A DNA stretch of 31,501 nt from a virus. Below the pieces are notes generated by a model. It saw only the letters and a list, made by a program, of their open reading frames with translations, was not told the DNA's origin and did no database searches. The stretch covers positions 1 to 31,501 of the IMG/VR virus record IMGVR_UViG_3300025276_000126; one strand, written 5' to 3'. Made by a program: the position numbers and the translations under genes. This document shows, one piece after another, positions 1 through 31,501 of this stretch. The stretch's first letter is position 1; each line of letters opens with the position of its first letter.

Positions 1-1
1 C

Positions 2-625: not shown

Positions 626-634
626 GAGACTACA

Positions 635-985: not shown

Positions 986-988
986 TCT

Positions 989-5208: not shown

Positions 5209-5210
5209 AG

Positions 5211-9500: not shown

Positions 9501-10887
9501 AGGGTTCGAGCAGGGTATCCGTGGCAATGGTGCGCAACGTCTAGCGGCGTTTGGTGCGATTAACTCAGTTCTTCCAAACCAGCTTGTAAAAATGTCTATG
9601 CAGGCTAATGGTCTAAGCCAGGAAGAATACGACGCGATTTTGCAATCGTCTGTTCCTGACTATTTAAAAGAGTCCGGCCACCACATTATGATACTCGACA
9701 CTTACGGCCCTGGTCGATACCAAGCTATCGATTTAAGCTACACCTTTCCTTACGCCTATCTGTCTGATGCAGCTAACGCTGCGGTGCAGACCTATCAGCT
9801 AAAAGGCAAGCTGGGAAAAAGCGAGGTGGAAGCAGCCGCGTCGGCAGCTTTAAATGGTCTGTCACGCTTTGGTGAACCATTCACACAAGAGACAATGATC
9901 TTTGAGCGCATCATGGATGTCATGCCCGAGAGCGTACCAGCTGGTCGCGCTGGGAAAACTAAAGCTATGGGCACAGTGTATGACACCATTGATGACGGAT
10001 GGGATCGTGCAATAAAATCAGCGGCACACATTTTTGGTGGTCTAACTCCAGAGTATACGCGCCTTATTTTGACAGAGAAAAACGGCAAAGTCGTTCCTGG
10101 ACGGCTGACCAAAACAGTCTTTGGCATGGAGTCGAGGCAAGGAGTCGAGAGTAAATATCACGACCCATACGTCGAAGCGATGCGCTTGGTCTCAGGCTTT
10201 ACGCCCATGGAACTTGATTCTCGAACCGCGCTTGAGTTTGCGGGGAAAGAGTACGCAGGTAATCGCTCTGATATCCGTGGCGCAGCATCGGCGGTTCTTG
10301 GTAACATGGAGTCCAGTGACAGACAGATTCTTAATCGTTGGGATGACTATCTTGATGCCCTGTACAAGGAGCAAAGCCGTCTGTACTTCGAGGTTCAGAA
10401 CATGAGAACTCTTGGACTAAGTGAAACTGAGATTCGTCAGCAATTAGTGCGGGACGCTAAAATCGGTCGTGCTGAGGCAGCTAAAATCGTTAATGGAATG
10501 TTTGCTCCCTCTAACGCCTCTAACGCTACTTTGGCTGGAATCAGAAAAGAAGCATTGACAGAGGGCACTGTCCGTCGTGCAACGGATTTAGTAAAACTGC
10601 AGGGGGACATGAACACTCGCTTTTTACAGGAAGTAAACAAGCCATTACAATACGATGCCCCGCTTCCTCCAGGCGCAACTTTGGTTGACCCTACGGTAGA
10701 GTCCAGCTGGCTGCCGTTTGTTTCCCCGGCGGCGGCGGCTACCATGCCTCCTATGCCCCCGGCGATGACGGCACCTGTTCGTGCTGCCCCACCCGTTTCA
10801 GCACCGCAGGGTCAAGTTGATCCTACGTTACTCGGCGGTGCCCCGGCGACACAGGCTTTGGCTAAATCTCTAGGACGGGCTCAGTAG
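6490..10887 (+). CDS. Giant internal virion / tape-measure-like protein with LPPGATLV motifs
   Basis: I chose ATG 6490, which overlaps the previous stop by 11 bases and has GGAAGAG upstream; an upstream ATG at 6424 would overlap the previous gene by 77 bases. This gives 1465 residues. The N-terminus has two identical copies of DLPPGATLVKPVSD, and a related PLPPGATLVDP sits about 80 residues from the C-terminus. The rest is mostly alpha-helical with hydrophobic Gly/Ala stretches near residues 60-230 and long charged helices. No transglycosylase or protease motif is obvious. Size, helix content and position at the end of the structural run fit a large ejected core protein. The role is inferred. 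Confidence 0.65.
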   Translation: MADDLPPGATLVKPVSDLPPGATLVKPVSDEPSFLDKAKEFDQSVAQKIGAARSTVGDIGRGVANAPISIAGGLAETAALVVDYGLGTNTASQVEKTFDAIKNVTGAKTKAGQITDDVVSFGASFLMPALWVSKATSVARGMQTGKGLLGFAPKSKIGKKLDNLAVSFGNSASGKALLNPKVLGVRPGAVALTAAGTAPISFAVSPSGRATLSDSVDWMPDLTKTDQEQVQGRDETTRRIGNKFKNAVEDTAMGGIFDVGIGLGLTAAKGVGRGVGAVARSEPVQPVVQATKDIYKRVYDAGLKDSMAENFVKKNLTSFRGLDPKVAIQIELGGQQGKEVDRVTYKGAQDFDKAARQVLQSALKNSDQSPIDMGIIKRDLEEVLGGKKLLEDLPYLTPELGRSIQRMQQVSARSTDDLVNVLEEEIALNPLTGRAEKAQEALDIIKANQAAGVTHLRRLFQRHEDPVSFYKQLDLDSPEYTQTVGDMVNYMTFSKQFAADASDAQKRVLAEDEVRTMLGLAATSSGLSNKQLIKKVRKEIRLAETVDDGSVLVARIPKMKQATDLLESRATFMDQSQAARSLLKMVDEDAVGLWRKTVNDTANLVATRDFYQSMGAYSLNDARELVQQGGRPLIVRPPPDDFLDSPVVYQKVKEGEAGFRPGLAPEMQPTLREVIEEEMKDLSGYVKLGEESSERVFGGQFGELSGLYVAPEFYQSITAPYKLKSVALDYVLSLFQKARAGSQKLTVVPSITANVRQMFGNGLTLGSNANMGADNVTLALRTQIASYADLEDEGLEHLARKLSAAGVADEGVIINTMKEYREVGKEFSTLEAPNKLFDKIGDALGMRYFEKFYSGTDTVAKGAGLLGEEGKLLDVFKAAGIAENNPTINKAFMENKLFSGAGMSAQEARAGSTGKRKSFTYLTPVELQAAEIVKNTMPTYSRIVEAAKFVDKIPIVGNFTSFAAENTRNAFNTVGRGMREMAFEISPSIRQELVGEGYTEAQIAGFEQGIRGNGAQRLAAFGAINSVLPNQLVKMSMQANGLSQEEYDAILQSSVPDYLKESGHHIMILDTYGPGRYQAIDLSYTFPYAYLSDAANAAVQTYQLKGKLGKSEVEAAASAALNGLSRFGEPFTQETMIFERIMDVMPESVPAGRAGKTKAMGTVYDTIDDGWDRAIKSAAHIFGGLTPEYTRLILTEKNGKVVPGRLTKTVFGMESRQGVESKYHDPYVEAMRLVSGFTPMELDSRTALEFAGKEYAGNRSDIRGAASAVLGNMESSDRQILNRWDDYLDALYKEQSRLYFEVQNMRTLGLSETEIRQQLVRDAKIGRAEAAKIVNGMFAPSNASNATLAGIRKEALTEGTVRRATDLVKLQGDMNTRFLQEVNKPLQYDAPLPPGATLVDPTVESSWLPFVSPAAAATMPPMPPAMTAPVRAAPPVSAPQGQVDPTLLGGAPATQALAKSLGRAQ
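6502..6579 (+). repeat. Exact 39-bp tandem duplication at start of giant virion gene
   Basis: Bases 6502-6540 and 6541-6579 are identical. Each encodes LPPGATLVKPVSD. Identity at every third base shows a recent duplication. Confidence 0.95.
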
Positions 10888-10893
10888 AGGCGG

Positions 10894-11136
10894 CTAATGC
10901 ACAGATTGCGAACCGCCGCGGGTAGGTCCTGGGTCAATATCAATTGACGTTGAGACGCCCACCCCTCCAAATAGTTTGATCAACTCGTCGCAGTGCGCTT
11001 CAGCTTCTTCTAGGATGTCTGCGTCTCTGGTCATGGCCGCAAGGTTCAATGTCATGCTTACTATTTCTATCAGGTGATTTACCTGCATAGGGTGCATGTC
11101 GCGTAGGCCTACCGTTTTCATCTTATCAAGTTTCAT
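10894..11136 (-). CDS. Small acidic helical protein, unknown
   Basis: An 80-residue protein read leftward. ATG 11136 overlaps the polymerase stop (ATGA), so this start is preferred to a TTG 15 bases upstream. It is mainly helical with a central segment (NHLIEIVSMTLNLAAM, DADILEEAEAHCDELIKLF) and a Gly/Pro/Ser C-terminal tail. It is the last gene of the leftward replication run and converges on the giant virion gene with only six bases between the two stops. Function unknown; coupling to the polymerase gene suggests a replication accessory role. Confidence 0.65.
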   Translation of the reverse strand: MKLDKMKTVGLRDMHPMQVNHLIEIVSMTLNLAAMTRDADILEEAEAHCDELIKLFGGVGVSTSIDIDPGPTRGGSQSVH

Positions 11137-13061
11137 TCGATCTCTCCCCAATTATCCTTGAGTTCATCGTCTACTTTGGAGGGAACCTTCAAGACATCCG
11201 CCAGTCCATTCTCCATGATGTCCTTGATGCGCTTCGCTTGTTCGTCACTCTCTACTGAGAAGCATAGTTCATCATGGACGGTGAGCATAGGCAAAAGACC
11301 CTCTGCATAGCAGTCAGCCATCGCCTTTTTTGTTTGATCCGCAGCGGACCCTTGGATCAGTTTGTTTAACGCCTTGTAAGTAAAGGCTCTTCTTAGAGGC
11401 TGACCATACTTCTTGATGGCATCCTCATATAGCATCGGCTTGCTGTACCCAAAGGTCCGCGGCTCCCACATATTGAATCTGCAGCGCCGTCCAAGCAGAG
11501 TCCGGATCTGTCCTGTCTTTTCGGCCTGCCTGCTAGCTAGGTTAGCTAAGTTCTTAACGAACGGAACTTTGTCCTGGTGCTTCTGCAATAGGTCGCCCGC
11601 TTCCTCAGTACTTATACCTAGTTGATCCCCAAGCTTGCCCTTACCCATGCCGTACATGATGCCAAGGTTCACAACCTTGGCCTCCTTGCGGGTAATCCCT
11701 GCCAAGTCTGCCACCATCTGGTGCAGATCAACGTCACCTGTGTTGTACTCTTCGACGATGGTCTCGACAAGCGGGTGCCGCATGTCCCCCTGCAAGCTGG
11801 CTGCAAAGTGAACCAGTAACCTCGGCTCTTGGCTCGAGTAGTCGAACGATCCCCACTTGGTCCCCTCTTCCGGAAGGAACAGGCCGCGGATCAGCTTCTT
11901 AATCTCTGGGTCCCGAGCCGGAATCTGCTGAAGGTTAGGGTTAGACGAAGAGAACCTCCCGGTCACCGTGCCTCCGCCATCAGAGCGCAGCTGGTGAAAC
12001 TCGCAATGGATACGACCCTTGTGCTCGTGCTTGAGGATGGAATCGATGAAGCTAGTCTCAGCCTTGTCGAACTCCCGCAGCTTCATAATCATCTGTGCCA
12101 CTGGATGCGAGTTTGCACTGAGCCACTGCTTGGTAAAGGAAGGCACCCCAGACTTACGGAGAAGGTCCCCCTGTGCGTCATCGGAGGTTGGATAGACCAA
12201 CCCTAGCTCATCAAAGACCGTAGCCACAGAGGCCGCTGCCCAAGGCTCTACCTTGATCTTAGTCTGGCGGTAGATCTCGTCCTTGATCTCCTTGCTCTTC
12301 TTTTTGAAGAAGACCTTAGCTTGTTCCGCCTTGTCCAAGTCAACCCGCACACCAAGCTGGCGCATGTCACACATCATGGGGATGAGGCTGGTCTCTAGGC
12401 CCCAGATGTTCCAGAGGTCCTGCTGGTCTAGCTCGATGCGAAGGCGCTCCCACAAACGCAGGGTCATCCCTGCATCCTGCTCGGCATAGCGACCTACGAA
12501 CTCGGGCGGCAGCTTGTACATCTCAGCCTTGGGGTCAAAGCCCCACTCAGCCGCAGCCACGCGCAGTAGCTTCTCGTTCTTGCGCTCGTTGAGATAGTCC
12601 CGACCAAGGTTGTTAAGGCTGTAGGAGAAACGGTTCTCGTCTACCACAGCACCAGTGATCATGGTGTCAATGATCCTTCCCTCAACTTTAATTCCCTCCG
12701 CACGTAGCCAGCCCAAATCATAGGTAGCGTTGTGCATAATCTTATCTATGTGAGGCGTAGCCATCTGTCTCTGTAACCACTTGAGAACAATCCTAGCGTC
12801 CATGTTGTGCCCGTTGGCATGTCGTATAGGGAAATACCCTTCCCAGTCTCCTGCGGCTACTGCGATGCCCACAATGTATCCGTCCTTACGCGCCCACCCT
12901 GGACCCAGTTTGGTCAGGTTCGGGTCACACGTCTCAAGGTCAATCGCAATTTGTTTGTGCCCAGTTAGATGAGGAAACTCAGACGGTATGTTCCAAGCCA
13001 GTTCCTTTGGTTGATTCATCTGCGCAGCAATGACGCTGTCTTTTGTAAAGCCACTACTCAT
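11133..13061 (-). CDS. polA: Family A DNA polymerase with 3'-5' exonuclease domain
   Basis: A 642-residue replicative polymerase. The proofreading exonuclease has ExoI D41-L-E43, ExoII N111-A-T-Y-D115 and ExoIII Y192-x3-D196. The polymerase domain has motif A (F406-D407-Y408-S-S-Q-E-P-R), motif B/O-helix (R458, K462, Y470-G471) and motif C (V595-H596-D597-E598), so all catalytic residues are present. The residue aligned with E. coli Pol I Phe762 is Leu466, a variant seen in many environmental phage polymerases. There is no 5' nuclease domain and no DnaJ-like insertion. It overlaps its upstream neighbour by 8 bases and couples to the downstream small gene by ATGA. Confidence 0.97.
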   Translation of the reverse strand: MSSGFTKDSVIAAQMNQPKELAWNIPSEFPHLTGHKQIAIDLETCDPNLTKLGPGWARKDGYIVGIAVAAGDWEGYFPIRHANGHNMDARIVLKWLQRQMATPHIDKIMHNATYDLGWLRAEGIKVEGRIIDTMITGAVVDENRFSYSLNNLGRDYLNERKNEKLLRVAAAEWGFDPKAEMYKLPPEFVGRYAEQDAGMTLRLWERLRIELDQQDLWNIWGLETSLIPMMCDMRQLGVRVDLDKAEQAKVFFKKKSKEIKDEIYRQTKIKVEPWAAASVATVFDELGLVYPTSDDAQGDLLRKSGVPSFTKQWLSANSHPVAQMIMKLREFDKAETSFIDSILKHEHKGRIHCEFHQLRSDGGGTVTGRFSSSNPNLQQIPARDPEIKKLIRGLFLPEEGTKWGSFDYSSQEPRLLVHFAASLQGDMRHPLVETIVEEYNTGDVDLHQMVADLAGITRKEAKVVNLGIMYGMGKGKLGDQLGISTEEAGDLLQKHQDKVPFVKNLANLASRQAEKTGQIRTLLGRRCRFNMWEPRTFGYSKPMLYEDAIKKYGQPLRRAFTYKALNKLIQGSAADQTKKAMADCYAEGLLPMLTVHDELCFSVESDEQAKRIKDIMENGLADVLKVPSKVDDELKDNWGEIE

Positions 13062-13386
13062 TGGACGTACTCAGTATCTTATCCAAGCGGTTTGATATTG
13101 CCTTCTCGCGTTCGGTAAACTCTCCGCCCAAGGCGCTGTAACCACACTTGTCGATCCACGAATCGTCATGGCGGATGTCGTTGAGCAGCCGTGCGGTCTT
13201 CACCCAGTCCATCATCAACGCAACATGCTGCGGTGTGACGTACCCATTGGTTGTCATGGCTTCGCGGATAATTATATTCCAGCCCTCGGCAATGCGAGAG
13301 AAGTTCTCGTATGCATCCCCGTAGTCCTTGGCCCTCTGTCCGTTGATGTACTTTTCGGCGGTGGCTAGCACTTCATCTCGTTTCAT
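13054..13386 (-). CDS. DUF6378-like protein
   Basis: A 110-residue protein with the pattern INGQRAKDYGDAYENFSRIA, then HVALMMDWVKTARLLNDIRHDDSWIDKCGYSAL. Conserved R-x-x-x-YG, N, K-x-x-R and HxDSWxDxxGY positions match the phage family I know as DUF6378. All-helical proteins with this layout resemble MazG-type nucleotide pyrophosphohydrolases, but no experimental function is known to me. It overlaps the helicase by ATGA (13383-13386) and the polymerase by 8 bases, so it sits inside the replication operon. A nucleotide-pool role is a plausible inference. Confidence 0.7.
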   Translation of the reverse strand: MKRDEVLATAEKYINGQRAKDYGDAYENFSRIAEGWNIIIREAMTTNGYVTPQHVALMMDWVKTARLLNDIRHDDSWIDKCGYSALGGEFTEREKAISNRLDKILSTSNE

Positions 13387-14912
13387 ATCTCGTACCTGTA
13401 TGATTTGTCCGACTCGATTAGATAAAGGTTCTGCTTGGCGCGGGTAACCGCAACATAAAAGATCCTGTGCTCATCCTCCGGATGTTTCCCTTCAACGCAG
13501 TTCTTGGTTGACCCCAAGTATACTGCCACGTTGTCGTCCTCTCCTCCCTTCATAGCATGGATGGTTGAGATCTTGATCCTCGGCTCTTGGTAAATGTTCT
13601 CGCCTCGCCGCTCGATGGCGCGGATGTAGATCTTCTCTTCCTCCGACATCTTGATAACGTCCATAGGATGCGTGTCCCGCGGTGCAATCAAGCCAAACTC
13701 TTGGACCAGCATGTCATACGTCAACAGGTCCTCGGACCCCGCAGCGTCAAGCAGAGTCATAGCCCCCCGCTGCACCGCCGCAAACTTCCCCATCTTAGGG
13801 ACAGCCTCGTACAACTTGCGCACCCTGCCGATACCAATAGCCTGACCGTCAACCAGATCACGCCACACCTCCATGGCCTCGACCTTCTTCTGGCTCACAG
13901 ACCAACGCCCCTTCCGGCTGTAAAAGTAACCGTCCTGCTCTAACCGCAACGCGATATCGTTGACGTACTTGTTGATCCGAGCTTGGATGCTCCACGATCC
14001 TTGGTTTAAGGGTAGATGCCACAGTGCTCCCACGGTACGGACGCTGCCTTCGTCCTCTCGGGGGTAGAACTCTTTCTCCAACCGCCCAGGTATCCGATCA
14101 GAAATACGCATAGCAAGCTTCCAGACGCTCCGTGGCAGGCGGTAGGACTGATTGAGAACTTCTACCCTGTCTGTGCTTTCCTTGAACCTGCGGATGTCTA
14201 CAGAGGTCCAGCGGTGGATAGCTTGGTCATCGTCCCCAGCAATCAGAACCTCGGTCGCAGTCTTCGACATCTTCTCAACCATCGTCCACTGCAAAGGCGT
14301 CAAGTCTTGAGCCTCATCCACAATCAACAGGTCTAGATGTGGGGTCTCCGCTAGGTCTATGTAGCTGGAAATCATATCGGTGAAGTCCACCTTGTTCTTC
14401 TTGGATTTGTACTCACCCAATTGCTGAGAAACCTGCACCAACTTGGAGAAGTTCAGCGAGTAATCCTCTTCGTAGTTATACTCATAGTCCAGTGTCGCTT
14501 CACGGTAGACCGCCCGCATGATTAGTTGCAGGTACTTGGACCCCGATCCTCCCATAATAGGTACAGGAATCCCATCGTCCATCGAGGTTGCATCCGCACC
14601 GTCAAAGGCTAGCCCCAGTATTTTACCAAGGACTTTGTAGTCTTCTCTTGCCATCACATCCCCACGCTCAAGGCCCAAGCCATGGTAGCCCGTAGCATGT
14701 AGCGTTCTGAAATGCGGGAAGTCGTTCTTGTTGAGGTTGAACTTAACACACGCCCGCTCAACAAACTCACCAATCGCCTTGGTTGTGAACGACACCACGC
14801 CTATACGAGAAGGATGCACACCCTCTTGCAGCTGGGCCTCAACCCGCTCGATCAAAGTGTACGTCTTACCGCAGCCAGGTGGACCGAGAATCAGTGTGGC
14901 ATTATCGATCAC
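13383..14912 (-). CDS. UvrD/Rep-like superfamily 1 DNA helicase
   Basis: I place the start at GTG 14912, preceded by GGAG at good spacing and overlapping the HTH gene by 11 bases. An ATG at 15011 would overlap that gene by 110 bases. The 509-residue protein has Walker A GPPGCGKT (10-17), motif Ia VVSFTTKAI, Walker B VDEAQD (198-203), motif III GDDDQAIHRW (226-235), motif IV-like NQSYRLP, motif V KISTIHAMKGGE and motif VI VAVTRAKQNLYLI near residue 487. It is therefore a complete ATP-driven SF1A helicase. It probably unwinds DNA during phage replication or recombination. No hexameric DnaB/gp4 helicase is seen in the window, so it may be the main replicative helicase. Confidence 0.93.
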   Translation of the reverse strand: MIDNATLILGPPGCGKTYTLIERVEAQLQEGVHPSRIGVVSFTTKAIGEFVERACVKFNLNKNDFPHFRTLHATGYHGLGLERGDVMAREDYKVLGKILGLAFDGADATSMDDGIPVPIMGGSGSKYLQLIMRAVYREATLDYEYNYEEDYSLNFSKLVQVSQQLGEYKSKKNKVDFTDMISSYIDLAETPHLDLLIVDEAQDLTPLQWTMVEKMSKTATEVLIAGDDDQAIHRWTSVDIRRFKESTDRVEVLNQSYRLPRSVWKLAMRISDRIPGRLEKEFYPREDEGSVRTVGALWHLPLNQGSWSIQARINKYVNDIALRLEQDGYFYSRKGRWSVSQKKVEAMEVWRDLVDGQAIGIGRVRKLYEAVPKMGKFAAVQRGAMTLLDAAGSEDLLTYDMLVQEFGLIAPRDTHPMDVIKMSEEEKIYIRAIERRGENIYQEPRIKISTIHAMKGGEDDNVAVYLGSTKNCVEGKHPEDEHRIFYVAVTRAKQNLYLIESDKSYRYEI

Positions 14913-15102
14913 GGCGCTTCTCCAGCCATTCTTCGATCTCCTTGGGATCCCAGCGGCTGGCCGCACGTTGAGCATCAGCGTTGCCCAGCTTGTAAGGCTT
15001 GGGAAAGTCACCGTCGCCCACCCACTTGTATATGGCAGACTCTGAGACGCCTAGCCACTCGGCCACATCCTTGGCCTTCATCATCTTAGAAAGGGATGTC
15101 AT
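14902..15102 (-). CDS. Excisionase/AlpA-like HTH DNA-binding protein
   Basis: A 66-residue protein starting at ATG 15102, which has AGAGGAG seven bases upstream and overlaps the primase stop by 17 bases. It carries a MerR-superfamily helix-turn-helix: KDVAEWLGVSESAIYKWVGD, then FPKPYKLG and a C-terminal RWDPKEIEEWLEKRR. This is the usual pattern of small excisionase, AlpA or terminase-type HTH proteins that bind a DNA minor-groove wing. Its position inside the replication operon, with no integrase in view, suggests a regulator or origin-binding protein rather than an excisionase. Confidence 0.8.
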   Translation of the reverse strand: MTSLSKMMKAKDVAEWLGVSESAIYKWVGDGDFPKPYKLGNADAQRAASRWDPKEIEEWLEKRRDR

Positions 15103-16621
15103 TATTAATCTCCTCTACAGGCAGGGATACATCTATGTTCTCGAAAGCAGGGACCCACCATACTCGGATCGTGGACCTTGAACCGTCTGCCTTGTTGATG
15201 GCTTTATGCCCGTGGCATTCTTTGTTGCCGTTTAGTTGCTTCAATATCTCTTGAATCTGGGCTCTAGTGAACGCCTTGAAGCGGCGGTTGTGTAGAAACT
15301 CCATCAGCCCTGCTATGGTAAACGAAGTGAAACCCTCGTTGTCTGTCCAAGGCTTGCCGCTCATCAGTTCCTCTGGGTGCATCGCCCTGATCTGGCTGGT
15401 GCAGTAAGTACGAAGCAGATCCTTGAACTCACCCGTCAGGGTCAACTCTTCCGGAACCTCTTGCTTGGTGGACTCCGCCATTAGCCGCTGCAATAAGTTC
15501 TGCCACACGCGAGGCTTCTGTATCGGAGGTACAACCTGGATCTGTTCCATACAGGCACGTTGAAACAAGGTCTGGTTCTGTAGCTGCTCCGAGTTCAACT
15601 GCACACGCTGCCCAGATACGGTCAAGAAATACAGGCGCGGCTCAGAAAGCTGCACCAACAAGCCCCCGACCTCGATGGTCGCAACCTCCGAATCACCCAC
15701 ACCAAACTTCCGAGACGTGCATAGTTCTTTGTCGCAGTAACTCTTGAAGGGCTCCTGTTCACAGGTGTAGAAGTAAGCCTTCTTGTCCAAGCTTTTTTGT
15801 AAAGTCAAAACTTCTTTGGCATCAAGGGGCGTAGTGAACAACTGCTGGTTCATTGTCTCAAACTGCTGCACCCAATCATCCGAGTGCTTCAGACGGCAGT
15901 ACACACCACAGTTAAACAGCTTCTTGTTCCGGTCATCGGCCACAGGACCATCGGCAAACATATGCTGCAAGCACGGTGGCCCATCGCTGAACTGCTTGCG
16001 CTGCTTCTTGGTCCGCAGTTTCTCCAGAGAAGAGATCGCAGTGCGCTTGCTCTCGATGGCATCCAAGAAAGCCTCAATCTCCATGGACTGTACCTTTCCA
16101 TCGTAGCAGTATCGCAGTGGTAAATCTGCGTCGAAGTAAGGCAGGTTGATAAAGTTCCCTACATCCCCGCGCTCAGACAGGATCGTATCTTGCTTTGGAA
16201 ATATCTCGCAGCCGCTGTGGCCCAGAGCTACAGCCATCTCAAGCAGATACTCTCGAACCACGCTGGCTTGCTCATACTCTTCAAGAAACAAATATAGATG
16301 GGCTCCGCCCGACTTGGAGCGGCAATGCAACAAAGGAAGTTTAAGCTTCTGAATCCGCGCTTGCAGTTCGTTCTGATCTAGATCGTAGATATCTATATCC
16401 AACGCTCCCCAGCGGCACTTGTTATCTTCGTTGATCGGGATTGCACCGATCCCCTGCTTACCATCAATGTGCCCTTTCATGATCGACTGTGTTAACGGCT
16501 CTCGGACAATGCGGCTGTCAGCCTCGGCTTTTCCATTGCGTCCAACCTTACCGACCTTGGTCGTGCCGTGTGCAACCTTCGATCCCTCAAAGGCAGCTAG
16601 CATTCTTTGTGCTAGTGACAT
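15086..16621 (-). CDS. AEP-family primase-polymerase (TOTE-type primase domain)
   Basis: A 511-residue protein. The catalytic archaeo-eukaryotic primase core shows motif I L74-D75-I-D77, motif II S102-K-S-G-G-A-H108, and EIFPKQD (139-145) followed by GNFINLPYF (155-163), the spacing expected for the TOTE conflict-system and phage AEP primases. A Cys-rich part follows (C217, C238, C242 and C287, C296, C301), likely metal-binding. The C-terminal third may be a helical PriCT-like domain. The last residues are EEINNDIPF, closely like the docking tail of bacterial SSB. RBS AGGAG lies upstream of ATG 16621. It would prime DNA synthesis for the neighbouring polymerase. Primer type (RNA or DNA) cannot be read. 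Confidence 0.88.
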   Translation of the reverse strand: MSLAQRMLAAFEGSKVAHGTTKVGKVGRNGKAEADSRIVREPLTQSIMKGHIDGKQGIGAIPINEDNKCRWGALDIDIYDLDQNELQARIQKLKLPLLHCRSKSGGAHLYLFLEEYEQASVVREYLLEMAVALGHSGCEIFPKQDTILSERGDVGNFINLPYFDADLPLRYCYDGKVQSMEIEAFLDAIESKRTAISSLEKLRTKKQRKQFSDGPPCLQHMFADGPVADDRNKKLFNCGVYCRLKHSDDWVQQFETMNQQLFTTPLDAKEVLTLQKSLDKKAYFYTCEQEPFKSYCDKELCTSRKFGVGDSEVATIEVGGLLVQLSEPRLYFLTVSGQRVQLNSEQLQNQTLFQRACMEQIQVVPPIQKPRVWQNLLQRLMAESTKQEVPEELTLTGEFKDLLRTYCTSQIRAMHPEELMSGKPWTDNEGFTSFTIAGLMEFLHNRRFKAFTRAQIQEILKQLNGNKECHGHKAINKADGSRSTIRVWWVPAFENIDVSLPVEEINNDIPF

Positions 16622-16644
16622 GCTTGGCTCCTGTTGTGAAAGGT

Positions 16645-16675
16645 GGGGGACGGAAGCCTATAAAAACCGTCCCCC
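16645..16675. other. 9-bp perfect hairpin between SSB-like and primase genes
   Basis: GGGGGACGG pairs perfectly with CCGTCCCCC around a 13-base loop. It fills most of the 61-base gap between the stop of the SSB-like gene and the start of the primase gene. No T-run follows it on the minus strand, so it is probably an mRNA processing, stability or partial-termination element rather than a classic terminator. Confidence 0.7.
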
Positions 16676-16682
16676 GAGGCTG

Positions 16683-17468
16683 CTAAAACGGGATGTCATC
16701 ATCCGATACCGCATGAGTATGTTCCGGATCTTTAGCAGCTTTCACTTCACCAGCCATGATCGACTCGCGGAAGGCTTTCGCTTCCATCAATATATCACGG
16801 CTATTAACAAGGGACTCTTTGGTAATCTGATAGTTCCCCCATGTGCCTTGGTCATTGGACTCTTCAGTTGTAGATAGACGCCACATCGTAGCGTATACCG
16901 CAGGGGTAACCATCGCACCAGTCTTCGGGTGCTTGATCTTCTGCATCGCGATCTGTGTTTTCCAGCGGCGGCTGACCTTTAACTGGCTCGACTTCATGTC
17001 GATCACCGCAGGTTGGAACCCACCGTCATCGTCCATAACCAAGCAGTAGTGTTGATCAGACTTAACCAACTCATTGCCATGAGGCAGGATCTCTTTGGAA
17101 CCCTCACGAGATGTACGCTGCAACATCGGATCGTTGGCAGGGATCTCACCCTTGAACCCGCCACCTTGATCGCGAGGTACGAACTCCAGATACTTCGTAG
17201 TCTGGTAGCATGGCACTACAACCAAGCCTTCTTCACCTTCCCAATGTTGACCAGTGACAGTGTTGTATATGTCAGAGGATGATGCCCCCTCGATGAACTC
17301 AGGCTTCTTCTTGTTTAACTGCGGTGACAGTGCCTGCAAGATACGAACAAACGGGATCTGCATCTCGTCTGCTGCAAAGGATGCACCATCCCCTGCTGTG
17401 TCAAAGATATCGTCCAACACGTCTGTGCTTAATTCTGCACTTTTTGCTTTTTCTACTGCGTTACCCAT
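16683..17468 (-). CDS. Single-stranded-DNA-binding-like protein with SSB-type tail
   Basis: A 261-residue protein. The central region (about residues 40-200) is beta-rich with aromatic and basic residues (VSRRWKTQIAMQKIKHPK, WRLSTTEESNDQGTWGNYQI). The C-terminus is an acidic linker ending SDDDIPF, almost the same as the E. coli SSB tail. No primary-sequence OB-fold signature can be proved by eye. Its ATG overlaps the preceding stop (TAATG), and it lies between the coiled-coil protein and the primase. Coating single-stranded DNA and recruiting replication proteins through the tail is the most likely role; this is inferred from the tail and context. Confidence 0.7.
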   Translation of the reverse strand: MGNAVEKAKSAELSTDVLDDIFDTAGDGASFAADEMQIPFVRILQALSPQLNKKKPEFIEGASSSDIYNTVTGQHWEGEEGLVVVPCYQTTKYLEFVPRDQGGGFKGEIPANDPMLQRTSREGSKEILPHGNELVKSDQHYCLVMDDDGGFQPAVIDMKSSQLKVSRRWKTQIAMQKIKHPKTGAMVTPAVYATMWRLSTTEESNDQGTWGNYQITKESLVNSRDILMEAKAFRESIMAGEVKAAKDPEHTHAVSDDDIPF

Positions 17469-18028
17469 TATGCTTTCCTCCGAATTTCTGCTGCGTTGTT
17501 AAGGTAAGCCCCGAACATGTCTAGGTCGATTGGCTTGCCGTCCATCACCCGTTCCTTGACAAAGGCCTTGAGTGTAGACGGGTGGATATGCGTCTTGGTC
17601 TTCGGATCAAAGCCACGCTCTTGCAGGATGCCAACGACATCTCCCGCAACATTGTCCTCGCCCTTGCCAAACGAACAGGTCACATCGTTCTTGATAATGT
17701 CATCCAAGTGGTTCTCGCGGAGCCAAGTGAACGCCTCCTCCTTGCGCTCGGCAGGGATCGACGCATGAACAATCATCTTACGCGATACGGTCACACCGTC
17801 CACATCAAGACGCTCCACGCCCATCTCATCCATAAGTGCAGGGATGTTATCTGTTGAGAGCTTGTGCTTGTCAGCCTTCAACGCTTTGAGATGCTGCTCC
17901 GCATCCTCCATCTGTGCTTCGATATCGCGGAGCTTCCGAACCAAGTCGCTTAGTTGCGATCCTGTTCCGGTGTTGACTTGGGAGAGTGCATCCCCCTCGT
18001 CTAAGTAGTCTTCGAATATGTCACTCAT
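17468..18028 (-). CDS. Coiled-coil protein, Gp33-like family suspected
   Basis: A 186-residue protein. I chose ATG 18028 over ATG 18037 because the GAAGAGG ribosome site touches the upstream ATG but is nine bases from the inner one. Residues 20-60 form a charged coiled coil (LVRKLRDIEAQMEDAEQHLK). Then comes IPALMDEMGVERLDVDGVTV and a domain with AFTWLRENHLDDIIKNDV. This pattern is common in phage proteins placed before SSB or recombination genes and sometimes labelled Gp33-like; some are suggested host-nuclease inhibitors. It is the first gene of the leftward replication operon and overlaps the SSB-like gene by one base. Function remains uncertain. Confidence 0.6.
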   Translation of the reverse strand: MSDIFEDYLDEGDALSQVNTGTGSQLSDLVRKLRDIEAQMEDAEQHLKALKADKHKLSTDNIPALMDEMGVERLDVDGVTVSRKMIVHASIPAERKEEAFTWLRENHLDDIIKNDVTCSFGKGEDNVAGDVVGILQERGFDPKTKTHIHPSTLKAFVKERVMDGKPIDLDMFGAYLNNAAEIRRKA

Positions 18029-18056
18029 AAGTTCCATCCTCTTCAGGTTAAGTTAG

Positions 18057-23350: not shown

Positions 23351-23380
23351 TTGAACTGGGTCATCTCATTGTTGTATAGT
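23351..23380 (+). promoter_or_regulatory. Candidate rightward promoter for terminase small subunit
   Basis: TTGAAC (23351-23356), 18-base spacer, TATAGT (23375-23380). The predicted start would be about 15 bases before ATG 23404, whose ribosome site GGAGA is just upstream. Confidence 0.5.
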
Positions 23381-23403
23381 TGTTGAAAACATGGAGACCA
23401 TTC

Positions 23404-23973
23404 ATGCCATCAATCAAGAAGAAGATCGAAAAAGAACATGGGCGAAAGCTCACGAACAGGCAGATGACTTTTGCACAGAAGATTGTCGAAGGCATCTATT
23501 CCAACACCGAGTGCGCCCGAAAGTCGGGATATTCGCACGATGTGGCGCCGAAACAGGCATCCATTCTGTTGAATGGTCGGGACTACCCTCATGTCTTGGA
23601 ATACATAACTGAGCTACGACAGGAACGAGAGCGCCGATACGGTGTGAGCACCATTGGTCAGCTTGAGAGGCTACATCAACTGAGCGCGGGAGCGGAAGAG
23701 GCTGGTCAGTTTTCGGCTGCTATCAACGCGGAGAAGATACGCTCTGCTCTTGGTGGTTTGACCATCGACAGGCGGGAGACAATCAACACCATCGATCAGC
23801 TTTCACGGGACGAGATCACCACCCGACTTGCTGCATTACAGAAGCAGTATCCCCAAGCCTTCCAGATCGAAGGGACATATAAGGATGTGACCAATGAGCA
23901 AGGGACCGGAGGCGAACTTCTGGACGCAGTTAAGGCAGAACCTGCCGACGAAGTGCTTCGCAACGCGGATTGA
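23404..23973 (+). CDS. terS: Terminase small subunit
   Basis: A 189-residue protein starting at ATG 23404 with GGAGA nearby; the TTG at 23380 precedes that site. The N-terminus is basic (MPSIKKKIEKEHGRKLTNRQ). An HTH-like segment follows: MTFAQKIVEGIYSNTECARK, then SGYSHDVAPKQASILLNG, the usual pac/cos-recognition domain. A long oligomerisation helix region follows (ELRQERERRYGVSTIGQLER) and a C-terminal acidic tail for contact with the large subunit. The layout fits the phage small terminase family. It overlaps the nuclease gene by 80 bases. The large terminase gene is not in the window. Confidence 0.8.
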   Translation: MPSIKKKIEKEHGRKLTNRQMTFAQKIVEGIYSNTECARKSGYSHDVAPKQASILLNGRDYPHVLEYITELRQERERRYGVSTIGQLERLHQLSAGAEEAGQFSAAINAEKIRSALGGLTIDRRETINTIDQLSRDEITTRLAALQKQYPQAFQIEGTYKDVTNEQGTGGELLDAVKAEPADEVLRNAD

Positions 23974-25877: not shown

Positions 25878-26351
25878 CTACGACTGGTCCGTGATGTGAT
25901 AACCAGCTTGGTAGCGGAGCTTGATGGTCTGGCTGTTAATGCCCTCCAATTTATCCGCTTGCTCTGTGTAGTGAGCTTTCAACTCTTTGGTGTCGGATGT
26001 AATGGCCAGACCTCGCATCTCTGCTATGATGGTCTCGATTGCGCGTATGTTGTGCGCCCCTGCGGCGTCCTGCACTGTCGGCAGCTTGGCTACGTATTGG
26101 GTTGCCTCGGTGATCAACCCCTCTACTTCTTCGGTACTAAAGGGGGTGTCGTTACGAAGGCTGAACGATCTGTCCTCTCTTGCGCGGTATTCTGTTGAGT
26201 GATTGTGGGCAATATTGATATGAAGCCGACGATTGTAGGACCTGTGGCCGGGATCTTCGAGGCGGATGCTAACCTCCGCGTCTACATATCCCTTGTTAAG
26301 GATAGCTGCTTCAAGATTTACGATGGTTCTGTTTAAGGTAAAGATATCCAT
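25878..26351 (-). CDS. 157-residue protein, unknown
   Basis: The first gene of the leftward run, ATG 26351 with GGAGA six bases before. The N-terminus is mixed alpha/beta (LNRTIVNLEAAILNKGYVDA, EVSIRLEDPGHRSYNRRLHI). The second half is mostly helical (EEVEGLITEATQYVAKLPTV, IRAIETIIAEMRGLAI, ELKAHYTEQADKLEGINSQT). No Cys and no catalytic motif. Family not recognised. It is read away from the gene-free region that holds the putative RNA. Confidence 0.65.
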   Translation of the reverse strand: MDIFTLNRTIVNLEAAILNKGYVDAEVSIRLEDPGHRSYNRRLHINIAHNHSTEYRAREDRSFSLRNDTPFSTEEVEGLITEATQYVAKLPTVQDAAGAHNIRAIETIIAEMRGLAITSDTKELKAHYTEQADKLEGINSQTIKLRYQAGYHITDQS

Positions 26352-26443
26352 TGGATTCTCCGTATTGGTTAAGTTTCAACAAACACACAGGCATGAACCC
26401 CGTGCGTTGTCCAAGATACTTGCTGAAACACCAATCGCACTGA

Positions 26444-26456
26444 CCGAGGAACGAGG
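26444..26456 (+). repeat. 13-mer repeat copy 2
   Basis: CCGAGGAACGAGG, about 95 bases upstream of the first leftward gene's start. Confidence 0.85.
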
Positions 26457-26642
26457 GAGGGAATAGTCAAGGAAGCCTGACGTCCTCGTCAGGTTTGTCA
26501 GGCAACGCCGGTTTTCGTTGTGACGTTTTTGGTTCTGGATGCAACGTCATCTGGTCCTGGTTTTCTACTTTAGTGTGTGTGGCATTCAAGATGACGTAGC
26601 GTACAGGTTCTAAAATGTTACGGCGAAAAGACCTTCCGACCC

Positions 26643-26655
26643 CCGAGGAACGAGG
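26643..26655 (+). repeat. 13-mer repeat copy 3, within a CCCCC/GGGGG hairpin
   Basis: CCGAGGAACGAGG, here framed so that CCCCC (26640-26644) and GGGGG (26654-26658) can pair. It ends three bases before TTGACA at 26659. Confidence 0.85.
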
Positions 26656-26658
26656 GGG

Positions 26659-27364
26659 TTGACAATGCATTGGTTCTTCTAGCTACCCAGAGGGACAATG
26701 CCCACGGGGGATCATGTGTGTGTGTGTGTAGTGTGCCACAGCGCACCTAGCAGGCTGGCAAGGTGACGAGTGTTGCCGACAAGGAATCACTAAGTAATGG
26801 ACGAGCTTTTCCCCTTAGAAAAGTCGGGAATGGATTAGTGATTCCCGTGGTCACGCATAAGCTTGGCATCCGCAGACCCTGATAGAGCGCATAACGGAAC
26901 GTAGCATTGCATGGGGGTTTGATAGCGCCCTAGGCGCGTCCCCCATGCAGCGGTCTGTTATGTGTTCGCCCAATCCAACGGGGCGACGACCGTTGGCCGA
27001 TTGTCAGTTCGGAGACTGACACGGGCCGAAGGACCGTATGCGTCAGCGGTACTCACCCGAAGGGCCAAGACCTGAAGGGGCTTGGTTCATGAGTGACGCG
27101 CCCGGACGCCCGAACTAAGTAGCGGCATAACATATCGCATCTGTTCCCACCAAAAAACAAAAGGTCTAAACCAAAACTTTTCTGGAACTTGCAGCACCCC
27201 CGGGGGTATAGAAACGAGCTTACCCAGAGCACAGGTCCTAGAAACAATGACCACTGTGCTACACACATGCGTTAGGGGTTACTGGGGCGAATGCCTATCG
27301 ATATTGTGCCAGGGGCCGACCCCCATCACCCCCTTATTTGCGGGCCGGTAGATCTCTGCGCCCC
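26659..27364 (+). ncRNA. Candidate large structured non-coding RNA (about 0.7 kb)
   Basis: No protein frame is credible here, yet helices are packed end to end. Main ones: 26731-26736/26741-26746; 26757-26761/26773-26777; 26783-26793/26835-26845 (11 bp, perfect); 26888-26895/26957-26964; 26909-26917/26940-26948 (9 bp) with inner 26925-26929/26933-26937; an H-type pseudoknot at 26967-26996; 27002-27008/27015-27021; 27022-27036; a branched domain 27040-27099; 27228-27237/27249-27260; 27269-27273/27290-27294. Four helices contain G-U pairs that would be A-C mismatches on the other strand, so a plus-strand transcript is indicated. TTGACA at 26659 may be its -35. Size and phage setting recall giant ornate RNAs such as GOLLD or ROOL, but no identity can be claimed. 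Ends are approximate. Confidence 0.6.
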
Positions 27365-27372
27365 CTATAATG

Positions 27373-27401
27373 TTGGTGTTATAGATTCATTCGTATATAA
27401 T
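27373..27401 (+). promoter_or_regulatory. Promoter upstream of the HNH-like gene
   Basis: TTGGTG (27373-27378), 17-base spacer and a perfect TATAAT (27396-27401), 30 bases before ATG 27431. A second TATAAT at 27366-27371 and the inverted repeat CTATAA/TTATAG (27365-27370, 27379-27384) overlap the -35 area and could be an operator. Confidence 0.6.
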
Positions 27402-27430
27402 ACTGTTTGAGAACAGAAGGAGAACGGACC

Positions 27431-27685
27431 ATGGCCCGAGATTATAGATCTGAGTATGACAATTATCATTCCAAGGCGAAGCAGAAGAAGAACCGTGCAT
27501 CGCGGAACGCGGCTCGTCGTTCGATGGAGCGTTCTGGTCGTGTTAAGAAGGGTGATGGGAAGGACGTCACTCATCGGAACGGGGATCCGCGGGATAATTC
27601 TGCGAAGAACCTTGGGGTGCTTTCTTCTGGCAGGAACCGGAGTTTTGCTCGTAACGGGAAGGCTGGCAAGGTTCAGGTTCATTAG
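27431..27685 (+). CDS. Small basic HNH-like protein
   Basis: An 84-residue, strongly basic protein. ATG 27431 has AAGGAG nine bases upstream; a TTG at 27407 precedes that site. The N-terminus (MARDYRSEYDNYHSKAKQKK) and the Arg-rich helix (NRASRNAARRSMERSGRVKK) are followed by GDGKDVTHRNGDPRDNSAKN, then LGVLSSGRNRS. The latter block matches the HNH pattern (DH-x-NG-x-x-x-DN-x-x-NL-x-x-x-x-x-x-NR), but the usual D before the first His is Thr. It is therefore a minimal, possibly degenerate HNH nuclease or a DNA-binding relative. Phages often carry such genes near packaging genes. It lies right after the putative structured RNA. Confidence 0.7.
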   Translation: MARDYRSEYDNYHSKAKQKKNRASRNAARRSMERSGRVKKGDGKDVTHRNGDPRDNSAKNLGVLSSGRNRSFARNGKAGKVQVH

Positions 27686-27779: not shown

Positions 27780-30700
27780 ATGGGTTGGTTGTCGGACACA
27801 CTTTCTGAGGTCTTCTCGGGTGGGAATGCGGTTACGGACACGTACAATGGTAACAATAGCGGCAATAGCGGCGATGGGGAAGGCGGCAATAGCGGCAATA
27901 GCGACGACGGCACCACGATTATTCCTACGGGCGCTGTTTTAAAGAAGGGCACTGTTTTAAACAGCAGTAGCAACCCTGTTGTATTTTCCACGGACAGCAA
28001 TGGTGTTATCACGGGTCAGAACCAGTCTAATTCAAGCGGCGGCGGCACGGTTTCGCAGGAGATTCAGTATGGTAACACTGTTTCTCAGCTTGCGGAGGAT
28101 AACAACACTACGATTGGGCAGATCAAGATAGACAATCCCGGCATTGACATTAACAACATTCAGGCTGGTGCGACGATTAACATTACGGCTAACACGCTCA
28201 AAGAGGGTGAGAGCATTTACACTGGCATAACGCAGGGTGAGTTAGATGCTGGCAATGCTATGATTGCCGCCTCCGACACTGCGTCTACGAGTGCTTCGGC
28301 TATCACGGCTGGCGATACAGCAGCAGTAGACGATAAAGTATATGATCCAGTCTCTGGATTTGAAATAAGGACGTTAACGGGTGGAGATTTCGATGGCGTT
28401 CGATACCTTGTGGATGAGAATGATGTTTGGCAGGGTAACTTGCCGAAGGTAACTACGGCTAACGTTGGATTCGAATCTTATCCCCCAGCCGATTCGGTCG
28501 CGATTGATGGCGCGAATACAGGGCTTACCACCTCTACAGACGGAGCCAATAACTTTACGGAGGCGTTGCTGAATATTACTGGCATGGCTCCGGGAGATGT
28601 GGGAGTAGATGAGGCGTCCGCGACCTTAAAGTTGATAACGGACGAAGATCTTACGGCTAATGATGTGAGTGCGTTACTGCCCCCTGCTGCGACTACTAGC
28701 ACTGGCTACGACGATCTTGATGGTGTGCTGGGTACTATTACAGGCACTACTGCGGTAGTTCCTAGTGGGGATACTTCCACTGACCTCACTACTGCAACTG
28801 GCGGCACGAACACAAACGTCCGCCTTGGATATGAGTCTGGTCAGGACGTTCGTACGTCTAGCCCTGATTATTTAACTGGTTTAGACGGGAGTGGTATAAA
28901 CACGCTTGGTCCTGTTGATGATTCATTTTACGGTGGTTTGTCGAATACTACGGCCACTGATGTCACGTCTACTGATCAAGCTATGCAGGATCTGAAGGAT
29001 TTAACAGCTTTAGAGAAGGCGGGTTATTCTTTATCGGACATAGAGAATCTGACTAGGGCGCAAATTTCGGATGGTCTTGGCAGGGATGTACTCGCCGGTG
29101 CTGCGCAGGAGTTGGCGTTGAGAATCGCCGGCTCTAAGACAATGTTTGAAGATGCTTTTGGGGGGGGTAAAATTGACGTTAGCGCGGGTACTCTTGCAGG
29201 AGATCTATTTGAGTTGGGTGGAGGGGCTAATCAACCTGGTTCTGAGAGTGAGTTAGAGGCGGCTATTCAAATTGCGGTTGCACAAACGGAATTGAACAAA
29301 GGAGTTAAGGGACTCGGAGATTCCGTGAACGATGTGGTGAAAGATTTAAACACTTGGTCTGAAGGAATGTTTGATGGCCAGTCGGAGGCGTACAAGGCGG
29401 CTGTTTTGGCTGGAATGCCTGATCCGGACAACGACGGCTTTAATTATTTGGGAGAGCCTTTCACTCTTACGGACCCCGGTTTGTGGATGGCGAGTACAGC
29501 GGCTCAAGAACTGGTAGGTTTAGGCGTAGATGTAGTCACTGTTTTAGCCCTTGGTCCTGCGGCTGGCGCTGTGGTGGATATGCAGCAAGGTACAGCGGAA
29601 GCGGGTGAGGCTGCTGCAAACGAGACAGAAACTAAGTTGAATACGCTGAAGGCTAGTGGTGCGTTGGATCACTTGACGGATGTCCAGTATAAAGAGGTTG
29701 TGGATACGGCTTCGACGCAGGCGTTTTATACATCTGGTGTAGCTGGTGGCGTGGTAGACACGGCTATAGCGTTGTCGGCTGGTGGTTTTGCTCCGTTGGC
29801 GAAGGCCTTGCCTACTGCGATTAACAGCGCATTGACAGCACTTGGTGCTGGTACTGCCGAAGCTACTTCAGGGGGCTTGGAGCAGGTTGGTGTAAACGCG
29901 GCGGTTATCAAGGCCTTGGAGGATCAGGGCATTGATCCAGCGGATTACGACATAGGGTATTTGAATCAAGTTATTACGGCGATGAAAATGGAGCTTGTCG
30001 GTAGTGCGGGCGGGGTTGCGGCATCTACGGTTGGCTCTGCGGTACAGAACTTATCTGCGAAATCTGACACGGTTACGACAAGCACTGAGGGCGGGTCTGG
30101 ATATGATGATCTCGATGGTGCATTAACTACGGGTGCGGATGGTAAAACTGCGAGTGAGCAACTTCTGGTCGGCGACCCCGACGAGTTAGCAAATGAAGGT
30201 TTTAACAATCAAGGTGTTAATACGATTAACACGCAGGTGGTTACGGACGCGGATGGTAAGACTTACAAGGTTGATACTGCGGTTGACGCGAACGGCAAGA
30301 CTTCGGTCACGGTTACAAATGACGCGACGGGCGCTTCCACTACGACGGATGTTGGTACTGGGACATTGAACTCGGTAAACGTGGGTTCGGGTACAAGTAT
30401 TATTGTTGACTCTTCGGATACAACGAACACGAATGTGGTGAAAACCACTGTTCTTGAGAGCGGAAGCACTCTGACGCAAACGGGAGAAACTATAACGGGC
30501 TCTGAAGCGCTTCTTGGGGGCTCTGATAACGATGATTCAGCGGGTTTTACTGCTTCTGAAACGCTTCTTGGTGGCGCTAACTCAGGCACTATTAATGTCG
30601 TTTCTCCTTACGACTCTAATAAAATCTACAGACAGGACGGTGTTACATATGTTGGCGATCCAGCGAACAATGTTAAAGCAGAAGGCATAATTGACGGAAG

Positions 30701-31501
30701 TACGTATTCTGACGGTCAGGTTGTTGTTGAGACAGGCGCAACTACTGCTCCAGTCATTACTACTGCTCCAGTTATTACTACTGGTACGGATGACGTTACG
30801 GACGTAACAAACGTAAAAACTGGCCCAGAGGTGGGGATTTTAACAACTGGAAGTTTTAAAGGGGATGCGGCTGCTGCTTTAGCTCTTCAACAACAGGAGG
30901 ATGCGGCTGCTGCTTTAGCTCTTGAAGAGGATGCGGCTACTGCTTTAGCTCTTGAAGAGGATGCGGCTACTGCTTTAGCTCTTGAAGAGGATGCGGCTAC
31001 TGCTTTAGCTCTTGAAGAGGAGGCTGCTTTAGCTCTTCAACAACAAGAGGATGCGGCTGCTTTAGCTCTTCAACAACAAGAGGATGCGGCTGCTTTAGCT
31101 CTTGAAGAGGAGGCTGCTTTAGCTCTTCAACAGCAAGAGGATGCGGCTGCTTTAGCTCTTGAAGAGGAGACTGCTTTAGCTAATTTAGACACTGATGGCG
31201 CTGACTCAGACACTATTAATGTCGTTTCTCCTTACGACTCTGGTAAGGTCTACAGACGAGGCGGGGTTATGTATCTTGGTAACCCTGCAAACAATGTCAA
31301 AGCAGAAGGTAATATCGACGGAAACTTGTATGCTGATGGTCAAGTTGTTGTTGGAATGGGCTCCGAAGAAACTGGCACAGGTGGTATAGGCACCATAGTT
31401 ACTGGCGGTACAACCACTGGCGGTACAACCACTGGCGGTACAACCACTGGTACAACCACTGGCGGTACAACCACTGGCGGTACAACCACTGGTACAACCA
31501 C
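27780..31501 (+). CDS. Giant repeat-rich probable virion protein with LysM-like domain (3' end outside window)
   Basis: One frame runs uninterrupted from ATG 27780 (AGGGGAT upstream) to the right edge, at least 1240 codons. Residues 25-50 are Asn/Gly/Ser-rich. Residues about 91-136 fit a LysM domain (VSQEIQYGNTVSQLAEDNNT, IGQIKIDNPGIDINNIQAGA), a peptidoglycan-binding fold. Two hydrophobic Gly/Ala regions lie near 583-600 and 650-700 and could be membrane-active. Residues 937-985 and 1145-1190 are two copies of one module (INVVSPYDS..), separated by an Ala/Leu/Glu/Gln repeat array. Gly-Thr repeats start at about 1208. A tail, tape-measure or cell-wall-contact protein is most likely; the identity is open. 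Confidence 0.8.
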   Translation, partial: MGWLSDTLSEVFSGGNAVTDTYNGNNSGNSGDGEGGNSGNSDDGTTIIPTGAVLKKGTVLNSSSNPVVFSTDSNGVITGQNQSNSSGGGTVSQEIQYGNTVSQLAEDNNTTIGQIKIDNPGIDINNIQAGATINITANTLKEGESIYTGITQGELDAGNAMIAASDTASTSASAITAGDTAAVDDKVYDPVSGFEIRTLTGGDFDGVRYLVDENDVWQGNLPKVTTANVGFESYPPADSVAIDGANTGLTTSTDGANNFTEALLNITGMAPGDVGVDEASATLKLITDEDLTANDVSALLPPAATTSTGYDDLDGVLGTITGTTAVVPSGDTSTDLTTATGGTNTNVRLGYESGQDVRTSSPDYLTGLDGSGINTLGPVDDSFYGGLSNTTATDVTSTDQAMQDLKDLTALEKAGYSLSDIENLTRAQISDGLGRDVLAGAAQELALRIAGSKTMFEDAFGGGKIDVSAGTLAGDLFELGGGANQPGSESELEAAIQIAVAQTELNKGVKGLGDSVNDVVKDLNTWSEGMFDGQSEAYKAAVLAGMPDPDNDGFNYLGEPFTLTDPGLWMASTAAQELVGLGVDVVTVLALGPAAGAVVDMQQGTAEAGEAAANETETKLNTLKASGALDHLTDVQYKEVVDTASTQAFYTSGVAGGVVDTAIALSAGGFAPLAKALPTAINSALTALGAGTAEATSGGLEQVGVNAAVIKALEDQGIDPADYDIGYLNQVITAMKMELVGSAGGVAASTVGSAVQNLSAKSDTVTTSTEGGSGYDDLDGALTTGADGKTASEQLLVGDPDELANEGFNNQGVNTINTQVVTDADGKTYKVDTAVDANGKTSVTVTNDATGASTTTDVGTGTLNSVNVGSGTSIIVDSSDTTNTNVVKTTVLESGSTLTQTGETITGSEALLGGSDNDDSAGFTASETLLGGANSGTINVVSPYDSNKIYRQDGVTYVGDPANNVKAEGIIDGSTYSDGQVVVETGATTAPVITTAPVITTGTDDVTDVTNVKTGPEVGILTTGSFKGDAAAALALQQQEDAAAALALEEDAATALALEEDAATALALEEDAATALALEEEAALALQQQEDAAALALQQQEDAAALALEEEAALALQQQEDAAALALEEETALANLDTDGADSDTINVVSPYDSGKVYRRGGVMYLGNPANNVKAEGNIDGNLYADGQVVVGMGSEETGTGGIGTIVTGGTTTGGTTTGGTTTGTTTGGTTTGGTTTGTT
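30588..30735 (+). repeat. Duplicated module, first copy
   Basis: Encodes TINVVSPYDSNKIYRQDGVT and about 30 more residues (VGDPANNVKAEGIIDG, SDGQVVV). The second copy is at 31212-31359; the first 30 bases are identical and the rest has diverged. Confidence 0.85.
30864..31187 (+). repeat. Tandem repeat array encoding EDAAxALAL units
   Basis: About ten units of 30-36 bases built from GATGCGGCT(RCT)GCTTTAGCTCTT and either GAAGAG or CAACAACAAGAG. Protein units read DAATALALEE or DAALALQQQE, which should form a long charged helix or coiled coil. Several units are identical at the DNA level, so the array is young and unstable. Confidence 0.92.
31212..31359 (+). repeat. Duplicated module, second copy
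   Basis: Encodes TINVVSPYDSGKVYRRGGVM, then LGNPANNVKAEGNIDG and ADGQVVV. It lies just after the helical repeat array and before the Gly-Thr repeats. Confidence 0.85.
31401..31501 (+). repeat. ACTGGCGGTACAACC repeats (Gly-Gly-Thr-Thr-Thr)
   Basis: 15-base and 12-base units (ACTGGCGGTACAACC and ACTGGTACAACC) in a regular 15-15-12 mixture up to the window edge. They encode TGGTT and TGTT. All units keep frame, and the array may continue beyond the window. Confidence 0.92.

Follow-up and report, generated by a model that had tools for sequence, protein, structure and literature searches.

A folded element at a gene junction of a tailed phage shares its core with sites beside the F plasmid Frpo promoters and in ssDNA phages: a candidate single-stranded-DNA signal

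Single-strand promoters are already a known kind of regulatory element, and the Frpo single-stranded-DNA promoters of the F plasmid were reportedly described by Masai and Arai in 1997. At promoters of the Frpo type, host RNA polymerase starts transcription before the transferred strand has become double-stranded (PMC11541004, PMC7690428). The two F copies, Frpo1 and Frpo2, are 92% identical; they precede ygeA and ssbF and direct early expression in vivo (PMC9849209). In the IncI1 plasmid ColIb-P9, single-strand promoters known as ssi sites occur in the leading region, ahead of ssb, psiB and ardA (PMC9849209). Plasmids use such promoters to express anti-defence genes right after cell entry (PMC11541004, PMC9849209). 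Here we describe a folded, gene-free element of a tailed phage whose conserved core recurs directly beside each Frpo of F. Among the papers listed for Frpo together with bacteriophages, none has such a tailed-phage element as its subject.

The window, by which we mean the whole 31.5-kb stretch of DNA analysed, is a fragment of a tailed phage with near-complete relatives of about 56-58 kb. Its structural genes lie within a rightward gene set (1-10887), and a leftward replication block (11133-18037) encodes DNA polymerase A, a UvrD-like helicase and an AEP-type primase. Isolate relatives of the structural proteins are remote only, the best being Phage DSL-LC04 at 41% identity. A terminase small subunit gene was identified at 23380-23973 (PHROG 51, E 3e-12), and nearly all window-type loci carry a homologue 2-4 kb upstream of their core. 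The stretch 27780-31499 belongs to a LysM-like gene, very large (at least 1240 aa) and rich in repeats, that runs off the window. Between the leftward gene start at 26351 and the rightward gene start at 27431, no credible gene was found in 26352-27430, the sole site in the window with an ORF-free gap longer than 250 nt. A tRNA and tmRNA search returned none, and the region had no match in 50,697 phage records. We rejected a group I intron, since the left neighbour reads leftward and no gene is interrupted. The parts of the element and its flanking genes are as follows.

25878-26351, minus strand: first leftward gene, 157 aa, no family match; the plus strand is its template.
26379-26735, plus strand: giant folded domain adjoining the leftward gene, closed by long-range pairing.
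26422-26439 (5' strand) with 26666-26683 (3' strand), plus strand: long-range helix, 96% paired, with 11 covarying pairs.
26444-26456, plus strand: module CCGAGGAACGAGG, which can be read as a GAA triloop flanked by tandem G-A pairs.
26640-26658, plus strand: CCCCCGAGGAACGAGGGGG hairpin, with other hairpins in its place in relatives.
26736-26970, plus strand: lineage-specific hairpins, for example 26786-26847; relatives are not alignable here.
26975-27037, plus strand: hairpins H1-H3 (CCAACGG/CCGTTGG and others), with compensatory changes.
27039-27113, plus strand: conserved core of 75 nt, with the closing helix GCGTC/GACGC, then ACTCA/TGAGT, CCCGAAGGG and CCAAG/CTTGG.
27114-27269, no strand assigned: variable stretch, its sequence kept among the nearest relatives alone, with no supported consensus fold.
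27270-27405, plus strand: conserved promoter module, GGGGTTACT..ACCCCC followed by CCCTATAATGTTGG..TATAAT.
27431-27685, plus strand: first rightward gene, encoding an 84-aa basic HNH-like protein (PF13392, E 1.1e-5).

Searching IMG/VR for short patterns and for the downstream protein recovered about 30 different homologous regions from this same locus; one further candidate, L087, was discarded as a chance 17-mer match. RNA folding of 26659-27380 as a single sequence against shuffles gave z -3.38 on the plus strand and -1.06 on the minus strand, and 20 homologous 930-nt regions gave mean z -5.9 and -4.7, respectively. When DNA energies were used, 26352-27115 folded at z -7.5, and mean z was -8.5 on the core strand and -6.7 on the other strand, with the core strand displaying the better DNA z-score in 12 of 14 regions. 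Alignment of the relatives revealed that 95.8% of cells in the core are paired, with 36 double-changed cells (13.3 +/- 2.3 in shuffles), that the 5' domain (26385-26735, 11-row alignment) has 129 pairs with 86% of 1383 cells paired and 65 double-changed cells against a shuffle maximum of 33, and that H1-H3 are 94.7% paired with 35 double-changed cells against a shuffle maximum of 17; these shuffles ignore relatedness, and the counts are supportive evidence, not probabilities. Sliding the partners by 1-2 columns reduced pairing to 21-48%. In the core, the closing helix occurs as GCGTC/GACGC, GCGAC/GTCGC or GCGAT/ATCGC, and the inner stem as CCAAG/CTTGG, CCGAG/CTCGG or TCGAG/CTCGA. An earlier note, made from the window's letters, had proposed a large, gene-free, folded element read on the plus strand; the lack of a credible gene, folding far more stable than that of shuffles and covariation in about 30 relatives bear out such an element and show it to be conserved. 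The note had taken an absence of covariation as grounds for rejection, and strong compensatory change was found.

The limits of the element have been redrawn. The structured part covers about 26379-27113, so that the interval 26659-27364, proposed previously, misses about 280 bases at the left, where structure starts at about 26379-26385, and includes about 250 bases of something else. In this last part, 27113-27364, the sequence is conserved, and a 28-row alignment gave no supported consensus fold (alifold -23.7 vs -24.6 kcal/mol on the two strands). Within the giant domain, the long-range helix spans more than 220 nt, and an unbranched arm of 43 bp lies at 26510-26633, compared with a shuffle maximum of 31 when 26379-26729 was folded. 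The longest unbranched arm also exceeds that of its own shuffles in L155, L136, L117, L109, L006 and L004, but not in L121, L158, L002, L106, L005, L003 or L157, so about half of the relatives stay within their shuffles; in minimum-energy folds of Frpo1 and of the pWW0 copy, the arm is likewise not above shuffles. The letters of CCGAGGAACGAGG are repeated at 26643-26655 and also appear in the L005, L109 and L117 cores.

Several observations bear on which strand folds. The earlier argument for a rightward-read strand drew on G-U pairs in four helices, of which two fall in 27113-27364, where there is no consensus fold, and two in the lineage-specific 26735-26970. Such an argument cannot rest on single stems, because isolated wobble-containing stems number 7 with G-U and 10 with A-C and are uninformative on strand. 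What remains of it is a lean towards the plus strand, weaker than claimed and not settled: among pairs of the 5' domain and H1-H3 that are predicted on both strands, 20 show G-U and 11 show A-C. Across the core family, G-T occupies 33 of 1494 pair cells (2.2%) and A-C occupies 8 (0.5%), an excess that points to a fold of the plus strand. A G-T or G-U share of about 2% is low for RNA. Gene polarity was also evident in AT-rich phage contigs, in which the 5' neighbour of the core is oriented against it by 34:8 (p 7e-5) and the 3' neighbour in the same direction by 36:9; GC-rich phage contigs show no polarity 5' of the core (18:18), possibly owing to the poor gene calls there. In window-type loci, the leftward genes (26351 and below) take the plus strand as their template.

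Downstream of the core, the promoter module has TTGGTG (27373-27378) and TATAAT (27396-27401) separated by 17 nt. About 30 phages share a block of 40 bp here that hardly varies and in which two TATAAT boxes (27366-27401 in the window) are conserved at a distance of 30 bp; this block is likely a late promoter, perhaps involving a special factor. A possible intrinsic terminator at 27274-27335 consists of GGGG..CCCC followed by TTATTT, and its outer pairs hardly vary. The relative G013, whose replication proteins are 73-85% identical at the amino acid level (75-84% for most of them), keeps the promoter module (27270-27405) and lacks both the core and the structured domain, which indicates that the element is accessory and dispensable. 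In contig L178, at about 1000-1160, two perfect hairpins inside GGGG..CCCC stand before the same TATAAT/TTGGT block, forming a short version without the core.

The degenerate 84-aa HNH gene lies 3' of the element in all window-type loci long enough to judge and is absent together with the element in G013 (L177/L178). We rejected it as a functional partner; it is absent next to the element in L154/L155, which represent another phage type, and is therefore not required. In L005 (4018-4593), a homing-endonuclease-like gene, of HNH/AP2 type as judged by eye, lies between the element and the 84-aa gene.

The core belongs to a wider family, described by a model of 74 positions. R1, the earlier covariance model, matched the window core (27039-27113) at E 2.8e-17. 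R2, from whose training the window and its close relatives were withheld, as were F, pWW0 and the microviruses, matched the window core at E 2.7e-14 with all helices matched, exactly two sites in the F leading region (E 4.2e-16 and 2.5e-14), Gokushovirus (E 5.7e-17), MH572438 (E 1.6e-12) and three sites in pWW0. Across 81 distinct sequences of the family, 19 of 20 pairs covary, with 222 double-changed cells vs 61 +/- 6 in shuffles that again ignore relatedness. A degenerate core pattern detected at least 119 stretches in IMG/VR and at least 118 in GTDB genomes, with about 5 chance matches estimated in genomes; among the matches listed, the GTDB stretches are mostly from Pseudomonas, and R1 found 82 matches in 46 loci. 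A blastn search with a Pseudomonas core copy retrieved 373 plasmids, 318 of them typed as conjugative. Copies of the core are found in leading regions of conjugative plasmids, namely in a pWW0 region with recX, ssb and umuD (three copies) and by psiB, antirestriction and N-6 methylase genes of Klebsiella IncFII plasmids, and many tailed phages have one where early and late genes diverge; in L154/L155, the core sits within about 350 nt, between a leftward gene and the terminase small subunit gene. Among isolate phages, only two matched clearly; these are ssDNA Microviridae that carry the core in gaps between genes, on the strand as deposited. Searches of 48 records of relatives found via the structural gene 989-2890, 34 of which were searched again with R2, detected no core.

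Other features of these copies were noted along the way. The microvirus cores, at L391:1602-1679 and L392:2705-2782, are candidate complementary-strand start sites. L273, L280, L345 and other Pseudomonas loci have several cores within a few kb, and such clusters may mark integrated conjugative elements; Pseudomonas copies often lie just past the stop codon of a gene on the opposite strand. We found no paper that prints the letters of the core or describes it as a family; papers on the F ssi sites may still describe it.

In the 99-kb F plasmid, R1 has exactly two matches, at record positions 58089-58173 and 63477-63561. Each is the distal end of one copy of a 0.55-kb repeat; the copies are 90% identical, one preceding ssb and the other the gene at record position 64032. 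The two core sites thus adjoin Frpo2 and Frpo1, with positions and near-identity as published. Both F cores are on the strand opposite the leading-region genes, which is the transferred strand, and the same orientation relative to leading genes was observed in pWW0 and in most Klebsiella and Pseudomonas plasmid copies. The core is not Frpo itself. ColIb-P9, whose ssi sites match F from 10675 on, exactly outside the core, has no core of its own, and because it carries Frpo-like sequence without a core, we regard the core as a module beside Frpo and not as Frpo or a part of its minimal promoter. No leftward -35/-10 pair scoring at least 9/12 was detected in the window hairpins, and the same scan detected none in F either.

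Given this distribution, we consider a single-stranded-DNA signal of the Frpo/ssi kind the probable identity of 26379-27113; a switch acting on single-stranded DNA is likelier than a giant RNA because the core also occurs beside the F single-stranded-DNA promoters and in ssDNA phages. When the plus strand becomes single-stranded, during replication, recombination or entry, it would fold, with DNA rather than RNA as the folding molecule, and would carry the giant hairpin domain (26379-26735), the accessory hairpins and the 75-nt core (27039-27113). The 5' domain would do the job of the Frpo hairpin, and host RNA polymerase or primase would start RNA on the folded strand, presumably toward the leftward genes, as this strand is the template of the genes from 26351. 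The outcome would be leftward early transcription, a primer for the complementary strand, or both, and in ssDNA microviruses the core would act as the complementary-strand start. Against this proposal stand the double-stranded genome of the phage carrying the element, the lack of sequence shared with the Frpo hairpin beyond the core, the coreless ssi sites of ColIb-P9, the even polarity in GC-rich contigs and the relative G013, which does without the element. We advance a broader reading with more reserve, at somewhat under an even chance: the core may represent an undescribed class of ssDNA initiation signal, found alike in many tailed phages with dsDNA, in microviruses and in conjugative plasmids, among them F, where it lies beside Frpo, in which case the tailed phages would have an Frpo-like early/late junction, implying a functional single-stranded stage of the genome.

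The main rival is a large structured RNA, transcribed rightward from the plus strand in the manner of GOLLD or ROOL and perhaps acting as a homo-oligomer or scaffold. It is favoured by the better folding of the plus strand and the extensive covariation, by the conserved 3' core and variable 5' part, as in GOLLD (PMC12286853), and by the tandem-GA modules, which are stable in RNA too. However, membership of GOLLD, one of the options raised for this locus, or of ROOL, HEARO, OLE or any other family found no support in Rfam 15: cmscan gave no match at the gathering cut-off, one chance snoRNA match in the window when relaxed to E 10, and none in ten relatives at E 1. The share of G-U is low, no conserved promoter was found before 26379, the shortest versions (L154/L155) are only about 350 nt, and the F core lies upstream of Frpo transcription and antisense to the leading genes. 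Of the RNA reading in the earlier note, the conserved structure on the plus strand therefore stands, whereas the step from structure to RNA is weakened, because the core recurs beside Frpo, in plasmid leading regions and in ssDNA microviruses. We consider a large RNA unlikely.

Two further explanations were considered. The element could be a cis-acting RNA leader of the rightward late operon, working by antitermination or attenuation, as its place upstream of late genes, the 36:9 same-strand bias of the 3' gene in AT-rich contigs and the terminase small subunit gene directly 3' in L154/L155 would suggest. Yet the conserved promoter module intervenes between the core and the first late gene and persists in the relative without core and structured domain, and in F and pWW0 no gene read from the core strand can be clearly recognised on its 3' side, leaving a leader very improbable. 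The terminase small subunit gene, close in L154/L155 and about 3 kb off in window-type phages, could hint that the palindromes function in dsDNA, as a packaging or recombination site or as protein-binding cruciforms, and the mosaic architecture suggests recombination at the locus. Long-range helices that span more than 200 nt and multi-branch covariation are not expected of dsDNA sites, however, and copies are present in plasmids, bacterial chromosomes and ssDNA phages, which makes this highly doubtful and the least probable of the explanations considered.

If the element is a single-stranded-DNA signal, tailed phages with dsDNA genomes, in which the companion motif of the plasmid promoters occurs next to a comparable giant hairpin, may likewise make use of a single-stranded form of their DNA, or go through one, when early genes are expressed or synthesis is primed. 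Being searchable, the 74-position model, which links plasmids, ssDNA phages and tailed phages, could help to find early anti-defence genes and leading regions in mobile elements that lack annotation.

Among described systems, GOLLD resembles the element in being phage-borne and 0.8-1 kb long, with a conserved 3' part and a variable 5' part (PMC12286853), but it differs in that the phage element has no covariance-model match and has a core common to plasmids and ssDNA phages. The primase-type complementary-strand origin of G4 is a signal of folded ssDNA that follows the capsid gene in an intergenic region, which is also where Gokushovirus WZ-2015a has its core. Its hairpins and sequence are different, and we rejected an origin of the G4 type, with no R1 or R2 match at the G4 origin and none in alpha3. 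The ssi sites of ColIb-P9, placed in a leading region, are single-strand promoters, as the phage element would be if our reading is correct; they match the Frpo hairpin of F and lack the core motif. Frpo of F is a further counterpart. It differs in that phage and F share sequence only in and just beside the core and not in the promoter hairpin, and in that the phage element sits in a dsDNA tailed phage. The Frpo hairpin of F measures about 330 nt, and the longest unbranched arm is 115 bp in Frpo2 and 43 bp in the window. The likeness lies in the same core directly beside each Frpo, in driven genes that belong to the opposite strand, and in a common layout along the folded strand, which runs from the gene start through a large hairpin and small hairpins to the core.
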